From: Planotetraspora kaengkrachanensis
Lineage (GTDB): Bacteria; Actinomycetota; Actinomycetes; Streptosporangiales; Streptosporangiaceae
Assembly: GCF_016862895.1 (NCBI RefSeq)
Contig: NZ_BONV01000004.1
Span: 186,001 to 250,000 of the forward strand
Length of the DNA stretch: 64,000 nucleotides
Direction of reading: 5' to 3'
Both the position numbers and the translations under genes were made by a program. The stretch's first letter is position 1; every line of letters begins with the position of its first letter. The notes below the pieces were generated by a model, which did not search any database, was not told the origin of the DNA, and worked only from the letters and a program-made list of their open reading frames with translations. This document shows positions 9,477 through 38,228 of the stretch, piece after piece.

Positions 9477-9490
9477 GGGGGGCTCCTAGG

Positions 9491-9645
9491 GTCTTCCGCT
9501 TGCGCCTACCGGGTTAGCTGACGGATTCGGGCAGGGAAGTCGCCCTACGGCGCTTGGCGCGCCGATTCACCCCAGACCTTCATCGAAGGTCGACTGGTTC
9601 CCCGGCTCCGTACCTCCTTGTTGCACGGATTCGGCAGATCACCGG
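9491..9645 (-). promoter_or_regulatory. c-di-AMP riboswitch (ydaO/yuaA type)
   Basis: The transcript upstream of the NlpC/P60 gene contains the conserved blocks GGGGTGAATC (minus strand, 9564-9573), GTAGGGCGAC, CCCGAATCCGTCAGC and AGCTAACCCGGTAGGC (9503-9518), in the family order and spacing, with the earlier GCCGAATCCGTGCAACAAGG segment. In actinobacteria this class turns off wall-hydrolase genes when c-di-AMP binds. The start codon follows the last block by about 25 nt. Confidence 0.92.
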
Positions 9646-9898
9646 CGCCCTGGGGGGCGGAGAGGACATGGCGGCGGTGACGGTGGATGTTCGCTTCGAA
9701 CACGGCCGGCCGTCCGTGTCCGCGACGGCGGCGCCACGCTGGGTGCCGCTGTAAGGCAAGGAACGTACCAATACGCGCATATTGCCGTAAAGGGCATGAA
9801 ACGGTAAAGAGCACACAAAAAGGATCAAAACGCAAGAAACCGCAGATCAGAGCACCTATTGGCTGCCAATGTGATGCTCGTCACACATGTTCGGAGGG
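9646..9898. other. Riboswitch-gene promoter region and low-GC stretch
   Basis: The promoter of the riboswitch transcript must lie here on the minus strand. From about 9755 to 9865 the sequence is distinctly AT-richer, with runs such as CACACAAAAAGGATC, unlike its surroundings. No gene recognised. Confidence 0.4.
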
Positions 9899-35946: not shown

Positions 35947-37530
35947 TCAGAACGGCCAGCCGGCCGACCTGCCCGCCTCGAGCAGCGGGATCAGCCGGAA
36001 CGACGCGTCGGAGAACCCGCCGAACTCGTGCCGGTTCGCCTGGCCGGTCGGCATCGCCGCCGCTCGGTACCCCTGCAGGTTGAAGCCGTACAGCGGGATG
36101 TCCGCCGGCACCGCCGTGGTGACCCCGCTCGCGTAGTGGCCGGTCATGGTCTGCATGTCCGACAGGATCACCGCCCGATCGTGACCCTTCCACGAGCGCC
36201 GCAGCGAGTCGGCGATCTGGGTGCCGTGACCCACCTCGCCTATCCGTCCGCAGAACCGCTCGACCTCACGCAACACGGAAGCGCCGCGCCGGACCTCGTG
36301 CCGGAACGTCCCGTCGGCGAACCCGACGAGGTCGACCTGGTCGCCGCGGGCCGCGAGCGTCACGCCGAACAGCGCGGCGGCCTGGACCGGCGTGACCGTC
36401 GACCGTGCCGAGATCGCCCCGGACGTCATCGACGCCGAGGTGTCCACCAGGACCAGAGTCCGGCCCGTGAAGGACGGAACGTTCCGGGTGGCGAGCGTCA
36501 GCGCCCTGTCCAGCGCGTGGCCCCACCGCAGCGACGGCGCGTTGCGGTACGCCGAGTAGAACCGGAACGGCAGCTGCCGTGACCTGGCGACCTCCTCCGG
36601 GGCGGACAGCTTGGCCGCGATCTGCCCGGCCAGGTCGTCGTCGATGCCCGTCTCGTCGAAGTTCCTGAGGTTGCGAATGAGGGCCATGTACCCCATGGAC
36701 GGGATGATCGCCTCCCACGCCGCAGCGTCCATCGGACCCTGCAGCCAGCCCGCCAGCGCCTCCCACGTCATGCCCGCGGACCGAAGCCGTCCGGGGTCCG
36801 CGGCCATGACCGTGCGACGCTCGTCCACCGGCAGCGAGAGAAGCTCCGCGCGCCGGCGCAACATCCCGAGCGACTCCGGGATCGGCTTGTCCCGCTTGTG
36901 CCGGCGGTCGAGCGCGTGCACGAACAGGTCGCCCTGCGTGTGCTTGTCGTCGGCCGGCGCAGGGTGGACGAGATCGATCACATCGCCGAAGCGGAAGCCT
37001 CGCGCGTCGCCGTCGTACTTCGCCAGCGACCGCTCGGTGTACAGCCGCTGTACGGCGTCGGCGACGCCCCGCTTGACGGGCTTCGGGATCGCCCGGCCGT
37101 ACCGGGAGGTCCAGTAGGCGAGGGCCTCGCCGGGCTCGTCGGCACGCTGGAGCACGGACGCGACCAGCTCGCGGTTTCCTCCGTGTAGGCCGGCCGCGAG
37201 CCGGGCCCTGACCGCCTCGAGCGCGGCGACGACGGGCGCGGACCGCAGGTTGGCCTCGCCGCGCAGCCACGGCAGGAAGCGGCTCATCCAGTCGAGGTCC
37301 TCGACGGCGACCTGGTGCACGAGTGCGCGGAACCGTGCGTCGCGGTCGGCGGCGTTCTCATAGAAGGTGCTCTCGCCGACCATGTTGGAGACGGCGAGGA
37401 GGAAGAGCTCACCCTTCGCGTCGCGGACGTAGCCGGGGGCGCCCTCGTGCGTGGTGGTGGTCGGCGTGCGCCCGGTCGTGACCGGGCTGGTGACGGCCGG
37501 GCGGGCGGCGGTCGTGTTGAACTTCGACAT
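35947..37530 (-). CDS. rsr: TROVE-domain protein, bacterial Ro60 orthologue (Rsr-like)
   Basis: Ring-shaped RNA-binding protein of 527 residues that holds misfolded RNAs and Y RNAs and in bacteria can guide exonucleases such as PNPase. The TROVE HEAT-repeat region runs from about 30 to 350 (GAPGYVRDAKGELFLLAVSN, DLDWMSRFLPWLRGEANLRS, RNLRNFDETGI). It is followed by a von Willebrand A domain whose metal site D363-T-S-A-S367 is complete. Start at the ATG at 37530, with GGAAGGAG 8 nt upstream; this site lies in a hairpin. Upstream on the same strand are four Y-RNA-like genes, the last ending 45 nt before the ATG, so protein and RNAs probably form one transcription unit. Confidence 0.95.
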   Translation of the reverse strand: MSKFNTTAARPAVTSPVTTGRTPTTTTHEGAPGYVRDAKGELFLLAVSNMVGESTFYENAADRDARFRALVHQVAVEDLDWMSRFLPWLRGEANLRSAPVVAALEAVRARLAAGLHGGNRELVASVLQRADEPGEALAYWTSRYGRAIPKPVKRGVADAVQRLYTERSLAKYDGDARGFRFGDVIDLVHPAPADDKHTQGDLFVHALDRRHKRDKPIPESLGMLRRRAELLSLPVDERRTVMAADPGRLRSAGMTWEALAGWLQGPMDAAAWEAIIPSMGYMALIRNLRNFDETGIDDDLAGQIAAKLSAPEEVARSRQLPFRFYSAYRNAPSLRWGHALDRALTLATRNVPSFTGRTLVLVDTSASMTSGAISARSTVTPVQAAALFGVTLAARGDQVDLVGFADGTFRHEVRRGASVLREVERFCGRIGEVGHGTQIADSLRRSWKGHDRAVILSDMQTMTGHYASGVTTAVPADIPLYGFNLQGYRAAAMPTGQANRHEFGGFSDASFRLIPLLEAGRSAGWPF

Positions 37531-37534
37531 GGAG

Positions 37535-37563
37535 GGGCTCCTTCCTGCATATGGGAGGAGCCC
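37535..37563 (-). promoter_or_regulatory. Hairpin covering the TROVE ribosome-binding site
   Basis: In the transcript GGGCTCC (37557-37563) pairs with GGAGCCC (37535-37541), enclosing the GGAAGGAG ribosome-binding site. It may limit translation relative to the RNAs upstream. Confidence 0.55.
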
Positions 37564-37575
37564 GCGCTCAGAATC

Positions 37576-37710
37576 GTGCCCGAGATCGAGATCGGCGACG
37601 GATGCCAAGTGCTCTGGCCGCCTGAGCTACAGGGCCGAAACCCCGGCAGGACTCGAACCTGCGACCACTCGATCCCGAATCGAAGTAACCGTCGCCTGCG
37701 CACCGGGCAC
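37576..37710 (-). ncRNA. Y RNA-like gene 4 (with tRNA-like domain)
   Basis: 135 nt. Outer stem GTGCCCG (start) with CGGGCAC (end), internal loop with GTGCG on the 5' side and TCGATCT on the 3' side, inner stem GGCGACGG with CCGTCGCC. The apical part is a circularly permuted tRNA mimic: T arm GCAGG-TTCGAGT-CCTGC first, then a short closed acceptor stem (CGGGG with CCCTG), then a D arm TAGCTCAGGCGGCCAGAGCA. This is the YrlA topology described for bacterial Y RNAs, in which the Ro-binding stem enters through the anticodon position. TACTTC follows the inner stem as in the other three copies. Confidence 0.85.
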
Positions 37711-37727
37711 ATTCTGAATTCGTTTTC

Positions 37728-37822
37728 CTCCCGAGATCAAAGGCGGCGGCAGTGTGCGGGTGTCGAAACCCGCCACCCGAAGGTGTTCAACCAAGAAGTA
37801 ACTGCCGCCATCGCACCGGGAG
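37728..37822 (-). ncRNA. Y RNA-like gene 3 (no tRNA-like D arm)
   Basis: 95 nt. Outer stem CTCCCG with CGGGAG; inner stem GGCGGCAGT with ACTGCCGCC, 9 bp perfect; conserved loop boxes GTGCG and TTGATCT and the TACTTC motif are kept. The top carries CACC-TTCG-GGTG and a T-arm-like hairpin GCGGGT-TTCGAC-ACCCGC but no D arm. It is separated by 17 nt from its neighbours on both sides. Confidence 0.82.
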
Positions 37823-37839
37823 ATGCGTATGAAGTTGTG

Positions 37840-37914
37840 CCTCCCCGAGATCGGAGGTGGTACCGGCTGGATTTCTTTTGGGGAGAAGTAGCCGGGACCT
37901 TCGCACCGGGGAGG
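37840..37914 (-). ncRNA. Y RNA-like gene 2 (compact)
   Basis: 75 nt. Outer stem CCTCCCCG with CGGGGAGG, 8 bp perfect; inner stem GGTCCCGGCT with AGCCGGTACC (one mismatch). Loop boxes GTGCGAA and CGATCT are conserved; the apical loop is only about 20 nt, beginning ACTTCTCC. This form has no effector module at all and resembles a minimal Ro-binding stem. Confidence 0.8.
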
Positions 37915-37932
37915 TGCCTGCCAAGTTGTGTC

Positions 37933-38067
37933 CCACCCGAGGTCGGAGCGGCGACGGCGACCAAGTGTCCTGGGCCGCTGGACGACGCCGGCGTGAACCG
38001 GCGGCGGGATTCGAACCCGCGTTTCTCCTTTTGCAGAGGAAGTAACCGTTGCCTTCGCACCGGGAGG
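37933..38067 (-). ncRNA. Y RNA-like gene 1 (with tRNA-Glu-like domain)
   Basis: 135 nt, first in the array. Outer stem CCTCCCG with CGGGTGG (one T-T mismatch), inner stem GGCAACGG with CCGTCGCC (one mismatch), conserved boxes GTGCGAA and CGACCT, and TACTTC. The apex again has T arm GCGGG-TTCGAAT-CCCGC, closed acceptor stem CGCCGG with CCGGCG, then a D arm TCGTCCAGCGGCCCAGGAC that looks like tRNA-Glu. No anticodon arm is present, so it is not a tRNA gene. Confidence 0.85.
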
Positions 38068-38228
38068 TACAAGATCAGACGATATCCGGCGCGATATTCG
38101 GCGCGCATTCTGTTTTTTCCGTGACCGGCGAATTACGGGGGGCGGCCGAACCGGGAGTGCCATGGCTTCGACGGGCGCCGGGAGAATCCGGCGATTCGCG
38201 TTTCCGTCGTTTCCCGGGGGCCGGGCCG
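38068..38228 (-). promoter_or_regulatory. Presumed promoter region of the Y RNA/TROVE unit
   Basis: Contains two tandem 12-bp units, ATATCCGGCGCG and ATATTCGGCGCG (plus strand 38082-38105), just before Y RNA gene 1, and a TATCGT hexamer on the minus strand as a possible -10 box. Not verified. Confidence 0.4.

Follow-up and report, generated by a model that had tools for sequence, protein, structure and literature searches.

A TROVE/Ro60 gene preceded by four Y RNA-like elements

The window analyzed here is a 64,000-nucleotide stretch of the Planotetraspora kaengkrachanensis genome. Its minus strand carries a TROVE/Ro60 (Rsr-like) gene at positions 35947-37530, encoding a protein of ≈528 amino acids that was identified from Pfam, PDB sequences, and its predicted fold. 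The open reading frame matches PF05731 (E = 1.3e-13) and is the only match to this family in the genome. Its predicted structure (pLDDT 80.5; pTM 0.57) gave 13 PDB matches at E ≤ 0.001, and the title of every entry names Ro60, Ro/RSR, or TROVE; D. radiodurans Rsr (2nvo) and the Ro60 of a Thermus phage are among them. The helical-repeat ring and vWA domain of the Ro60 fold are both present in the prediction, at TM-scores of only 0.37-0.52, so the placement of the domains is uncertain. The MIDAS motif DxSxS...T...D, as defined in PMC11277228, is intact, with D363, S365, S367, T437, and D458 invariant among nine proteins. Neither rtcA nor rtcB was present among the four neighbor genes scanned around the TROVE gene. 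Elsewhere in the window, a c-di-AMP riboswitch (RF00379; 85.2 bits) lies on the minus strand at 9488-9646.

Four elements precede the TROVE gene on the same strand: the long elements E1 (38067-37933) and E4 (37710-37576) flank a short element, E2 (class S; 37914-37840), and a medium element, E3 (class M; 37822-37728). All four lie exactly where the original prediction had placed them, separated by 18, 17, and 17 nt (17-18 nt predicted), and 45 nt separate E4 from the ATG at 37530, again as predicted. A closing stem and internal loop are common to E1-E4, and each element contains the predicted second stem, TACTTC, and GAYCT-CGGG on the 3' side. The motif CCCGGTGCG, which was expected to begin every element, is likewise present in each, but it is preceded by 2-4 nt and so does not mark the exact start. 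On this Ro-type stem, E1 carries a circularly permuted tRNA-Glu-like module, recognized from its sequence and the P1/P2 descriptor, and E4 a circularly permuted tRNA module, recognized with the YrlA model RF02553 and our covariance model R1; E2 has a single hairpin, and E3 has a tetraloop hairpin and a T-arm-like hairpin. When each element was folded singly, the z-scores were -1.04 (E1), -4.45 (E2), -4.46 (E3), and -2.23 (E4); the energy of E1 alone is therefore unexceptional. The comparison with other genomes (see below) gives strong evidence for the elements.

Two minus-strand features flank the array. The promoter-like stretch upstream of E1 (38068-38127) is conserved, being alike in five genomes of the genus and ahead of the orphan array described below. 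Downstream, in the fold of 37510-37580, a hairpin at 37535-37563 covers the purine-rich AGGAAGGAG ahead of the TROVE start (z -1.85; 9 of 200 shuffles equally good). Similar letters are found in relatives, and this hairpin may control TROVE translation.

Recurrence of arrays beside one group of TROVE genes

All five Planotetraspora genomes searched have the TROVE gene and the long-short-medium-long order; the P. phitsanulokensis and P. silvatica records show 88% and 89% protein identity. In the family survey, 88 of 200 genomes had a TROVE match, and 94 regions plus the window gave 95 loci that were scored with a core descriptor. This descriptor accepted 155 elements at 59 of the 95 loci, with 1-5 elements per locus and 2-5 at 50 of the 59. 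A P1/P2 partner is present for all 155 core matches, and 149 exceed the 95th percentile of shuffles. The lengths fall into three classes of 68-86 nt (S; n=28), 95-121 nt (M; n=42), and 123-159 nt (L; n=85). Thus, the three architectures that the original prediction had singled out in one unit recur as classes, and tandem arrays are common in this sample, not rare.

Where the TROVE gene is window-like, arrays occur at 58 of 69 loci, versus 1 of 26 where it is of another type (Fisher p 2.4e-13); at the other 11 window-like loci, the core descriptor found no array. TROVE genes unlike that of the window, 25 of 26 of which lack an array by the descriptor (among L036-L129), may use other RNAs or none. 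At one locus (L051), the TROVE (minus) strand contains five GTTACTTC sites not accepted by the core descriptor, perhaps a diverged array.

Among the best 80 of 443 relatives, taken as a named-genome set, at least one full-length model match precedes TROVE on the same strand at 76 of 80 loci (counted by eye from the list). The listed full-length R1 matches extend beyond the family, to f4, f14, f17, f18, f19, and f26 of the same class. In a phylum sample, matches at E ≤ 1e-9 were found in 8 of 296 genomes, namely the genome studied here, six of one genus (g85, probably Streptomyces), and one other. The R1 matches at E ≤ 1e-3 (229 of 394 genomes) were not all counted as Y RNAs, because partial matches over model positions ≈27-105 proved to be neighboring tRNA genes at all five loci checked.

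A second array of four lies on another contig of the same genome (C53, 26409-26952; locus L190), where it was found with R1. Its element order is that of the window, and its triplets (see below) differ. Similarity between the two arrays stops ≈17 nt inside the TROVE gene, and no TROVE remnant was found within the 12 kb around this orphan array. The RNAs can therefore persist away from TROVE. The first element of the orphan array just meets the tRNA gathering score (29.1 versus 29). Arrays are also present on contigs classed as viral: the core pattern was found in 115 IMG/VR stretches, with a TROVE ORF in 66 of the 80 examined. Prophages may account for some of these contigs, and Y RNAs in phages are already known (PMC12282133).

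Long elements carry circularly permuted tRNA-like modules

After TACTTC, the long elements first form a hairpin, which a short V loop separates from the T arm; the acceptor hairpin and then the D arm follow. This is the order of tRNA positions 27-76 followed by 1-26, that is, of a circularly permuted tRNA that is opened between positions 26 and 27 and keeps its anticodon arm. In E4, the anticodon-arm-like hairpin (minus strand, 37668-37684; loop TTCGGGA, given as anticodon cgg by ARAGORN) is followed by the 5-nt V loop TGGTC, the T arm (37646-37662), an acceptor-like hairpin that links the tRNA 3' and 5' ends (37630-37645), and the D arm (37611-37627), the last three being assigned from the analysis and alignment of the long elements. 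In E1, the hairpin at 38025-38041 (minus strand) has the 7-nt loop CTGCAAA, identical to that of the same-genome tRNA-Cys(GCA), the V loop has 4 nt, and the D arm at 37967-37983 is of tRNA-Glu type, matching 15 of 17 letters of the same-genome tRNA-Glu(TTC). This permuted tRNA mimicry with an anticodon-like loop in E1 and E4 had been missed by the original prediction.

A T arm and acceptor hairpin were found in 77 of the 85 long elements of the family; the other 8 have no T arm by the test used. Covariation was counted in 26 of 51 hairpin-bearing long elements (alignment A2), selected as having both the hairpin and a V loop of 5 nt, because a MAFFT alignment of all 51 (A1) gapped the Glu-type anticodon stem. 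Over these rows, 98.1% of cells are paired and both partners differ between rows in 16 of 36 pairs, a level reached in 0 of 500 shuffles. In 13 of the 26 rows, one pair of P2 does not form, and four D-arm pairs are uninformative, since they never vary. RNAalifold, unprompted, returned the same main hairpins, including the anticodon-like one with its 7-nt loop. Among the 48 elements that have the common D arm, the tertiary pair 15-48 is G-C in 28, A-T in 19, and A-C in one; pairing is thus kept in 47 of 48 (p 1.7e-12). E4, itself one of the 26 training rows of R1, scores 136.9 bits against this model. The single-sequence minimum-energy folds of E1 and E4 contain no cloverleaf.

ARAGORN called part of E4 (37637-37709) a tRNA-Pro gene, a result that speaks against a non-tRNA assignment. 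We rejected a real tRNA gene here, as the acceptor of the call is borrowed from the Y RNA stem. In place of the normal order, open acceptor stem, and CCA 3' end of a tRNA gene, the module is permuted and its acceptor strands are joined by a loop. When the modules were un-permuted, ARAGORN called 71 of 77 as tRNA, or 73 with wider options. We did not take this as proof of the anticodon arm, because 61-69 of the 77 were still called after shuffling of the anticodon segment, and the test is therefore silent on the hairpin.

An anticodon-like loop that follows tRNA rules with a changing triplet

Of the 77 long elements that have a T arm and acceptor hairpin, 51 have a hairpin of 5 bp, one mismatch being allowed, and a loop of 7 nt before the V loop, compared to a mean of 10.5 and a maximum of 17 in 50 shuffling runs; this hairpin is absent from the other 26. 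The shuffle nulls used throughout ignore the relatedness of elements. In these 51 hairpins, position 32 is a pyrimidine in 49, position 33 is T in 48, position 37 is a purine in 49, and position 38 is A in 47, and positions 34-36 form 24 triplets. Moreover, G37 occurs in 12 of 14 hairpins with G at position 36 and in 6 of 37 otherwise. The named genomes gave an anticodon arm in 61 of 82 elements (null 13.1, maximum 22); this count prefers a hairpin beside TACTTC, and 28 of the 82 elements repeat the family set. In viral arrays, the arm is present in 26 of 50 tRNA-like elements (null 7.4, maximum 16), T33 and A38 are found in 26 of 26, and the 36/37 rule holds without exception (G37 in 5 of 5 with G36; A37 in the other 21 of 21). 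The viral hairpins (L290-L369) have T36 in 21 of 26, corresponding to triplets for codons starting with A.

The family, named, and viral sets together contain 78 distinct 17-nt arms, with T33 in 73, a purine at 37 in 71, 32 triplets, and a coupling of positions 36 and 37 at p 7.5e-10. None of the three triplets that read stop codons occurs among the 78, which is a weak observation. At 11 orthologous loci (10 Lentzea and one Nocardia sp. record), positions 32, 33, 37, and 38 are constant and 34-36 vary, whereas at 7 orthologous loci of genus g85, positions 34 and 35 vary, 36 is constant, and 32, 33, 37, and 38 are again constant. The triplet is variable, yet not uniquely so, since ordering the 150 columns of the first set by variability places positions 35 and 36 only 22nd and 23rd.

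The triplet is also related to the type of D arm. All 14 elements of the Glu type (E1 and its kin), which have the D arm of the same-genome tRNA-Glu, have a 4-nt V loop, and 7 of the 14 bear a Glu anticodon triplet versus 1 of 36 with the other two D-arm types (p 2e-4; one hairpin-bearing element, L060-2 with triplet CTC, was omitted as its D arm is unclassed). The triplet of E1 is GCA in the window and CTC in its orphan-array twin.

Single tRNA-like arms in many short and medium elements

In the short class, 17 of 28 elements have an anticodon-arm-like hairpin with a 7-nt loop at TTC, compared to a mean of 2.1 and a maximum of 8 in shuffles. Sixteen of these 17 hairpins have T33, and the exception is E2 of the window, whose hairpin (minus strand, 37873-37887; loop CCCCAAA) is anticodon-arm-like but has C33. 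An alignment of 24 short elements (A3) had gaps in the hairpin and was excluded from the counts. A strict T arm was found in 23 of 42 medium elements (shuffles: mean 0.02, maximum 1). The T-arm-like hairpin of E3 (minus strand, 37756-37773; 6 bp, 6-nt loop) fails this strict test.

Proposed function and alternatives

The reading of the elements as Y RNA-like genes beside a bacterial Ro60 gene, already that of the original prediction, is favored by the match of E4 to YrlA (see below) and the association with window-like TROVE genes. The sequence, conservation, and covariation of the elements, their adherence to tRNA rules, and their link to one TROVE group were observed directly, and we consider it probable that the four are Ro60-associated RNAs whose heads mimic parts of tRNA and that act as tethers or gates of Ro60. 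Transcription, processing, Ro60 binding, and recruitment of partners are the inferred steps of this model. The array and the Ro60 gene would probably form a single transcript that is then cut into separate RNAs. The shared closing stem and internal loop would serve as a handle for the Ro60 protein, bearing an anticodon-arm-like hairpin in short elements, often a T arm in medium elements, and a whole permuted tRNA in long elements. Each RNA may gate the Ro60 ring and recruit tRNA-recognizing partners or tRNA-like substrates, such that several heads could give one Ro60 protein several specificities.

An alternative is that arms of differing identity act as bait for tRNA-cleaving toxins or defense nucleases, with Ro60 holding or clearing the cut RNA and the phage copies protecting the phage; we regard this as possible but doubtful. 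Its appeal lies in triplet variation and viral carriage, which are its whole basis: the triplet positions vary between constant positions 32, 33, 37, and 38 in both orthologous sets (11 and 7 loci), there are 32 triplets among the 78 distinct arms, and about half of the viral elements (26 of 50) bear an arm that obeys the 36/37 rule. A competitive-inhibitor role has been raised for YrlA (PMC7790460), and tRNA-targeting nucleases have been proposed to shape phage tRNAs (PMC10264068). However, variable triplets are also expected from neutral drift of an unread loop, position 36 is constant in the g85 set, positions 35 and 36 are only 22nd and 23rd in variability in the first set, and PMC7790460 detected no fragments of Salmonella YrlA. 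The fullest version of this idea, to which we likewise give only a small chance, is that Ro60 in actinomycetes and their phages tethers whole sets of tRNA decoys, some of them full permuted tRNAs with many different anticodons and others reduced to the anticodon arm or the T arm. The anticodons would vary under conflict with tRNA-cleaving enzymes, and Ro60 would sense or absorb such attack through these decoys.

It is improbable that the tRNA-like modules arose by chance capture of tandem tRNA genes that have since decayed to fragments, with the anticodon arm a functionless relic. The permuted module does resemble a slice through a pair of tRNA genes, given that the tRNA neighbors match R1 over positions ≈27-105, but covariation in the varying stems, the 15-48 pair, and the 36/37 coupling hold across families and viral contigs. 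The neighboring tRNA genes at L407-L411, which match this same segment, suggest a tRNA-pair slice as a possible origin of the permuted module. Quite improbable is a structured leader that controls TROVE translation or transcription in cis and whose RNAs have no separate life, for although all 76 named loci with matches have the array ahead of TROVE in the same orientation and a hairpin covers the purine-rich letters that precede the start codon of TROVE, each element has its own closing stem and the orphan array is followed by no TROVE gene.

A class of Y RNA-like elements with an anticodon loop that follows tRNA rules and a changing triplet, occurring in several versions per genome and on viral contigs, offers a direct way to ask which tRNA enzyme or nuclease reads the heads. 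These arrays, which recur in many actinobacteria and on contigs classed as viral, bear on the purpose of bacterial Y RNAs and of their tRNA-like heads.

Comparison with known Y RNAs and permuted tRNAs

The closest known relative is YrlA (RF02553; PDB 6CU1), which is likewise encoded beside a Ro60 gene. The Rfam model matches E4 with 46.1 bits (E 5.1e-9; 801 bases searched) and E1 partially with 21.6 bits, both below the gathering score of 69; no YrlA match reached this score in nine sources, and at the gathering score the model is thus silent on the hairpin-bearing permutation at the loci scanned. Known YrlA has been described as a circularly permuted tRNA (PMC11472068) that has the D, T, and acceptor arms, the Salmonella type being modified by tRNA enzymes (PMC8394870). 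In both YrlA and E1/E4, the stem is accompanied by a T arm, acceptor hairpin, and D arm that stand in permuted order. They differ in that the YrlA consensus opens within the anticodon arm, whereas the long class opens between positions 26 and 27; the closed hairpin of E1 and E4, with its 7-nt loop, takes the place of paired strands in that consensus.

The YrlA-like arrangement is found in a subset of the family. We scored as P3 the strand before the V loop paired with the strand after the D arm, like an anticodon stem opened at its loop. A P3 of at least 5 bp is present in 15 of the 26 long elements without the hairpin (swap null 5.5, maximum 11 in 500), whereas the 51 hairpin-bearing elements show no signal (14 versus a null of 14.2). 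Thus, the long elements have two exclusive forms, a closed hairpin or a YrlA-like P3, and the hairpin-bearing form adds another circular permutation of the tRNA fold to that of YrlA within one RNA family.

Other known systems are more distant. The Deinococcus Y RNA (RF01053) has a ACGGUUACUUC stretch in common with E4, in a weak alignment of 15.5 bits that is not significant (E 8.3); according to PMC4726728 and PMC7790460, the D. radiodurans Y RNA tethers Rsr to PNPase. Salmonella encodes two Y RNAs, yrlB and yrlA, by rsr in the rtcBA operon (PMC7790460), and so resembles the window in having more than one Y RNA beside rsr, but the window has four and has no rtcA or rtcB among the neighbors scanned. 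A literature search, whose coverage fell short of the main Y RNA papers, found no Y RNA described as having an anticodon loop. Eukaryotic Y_RNA is absent from the 12 matches listed at E ≤ 10. By their position beside a Ro60 gene, the window's elements are candidate bacterial Y RNAs in the wide sense, which would also bind the Ro60/Rsr protein.

Permuted tRNA genes of algae have the 3' half before the 5' half. The modules of the window have the same half order, but, unlike in the algal genes, a short loop connects their acceptor strands and they are set in a Y RNA stem, so that they have no CCA end.
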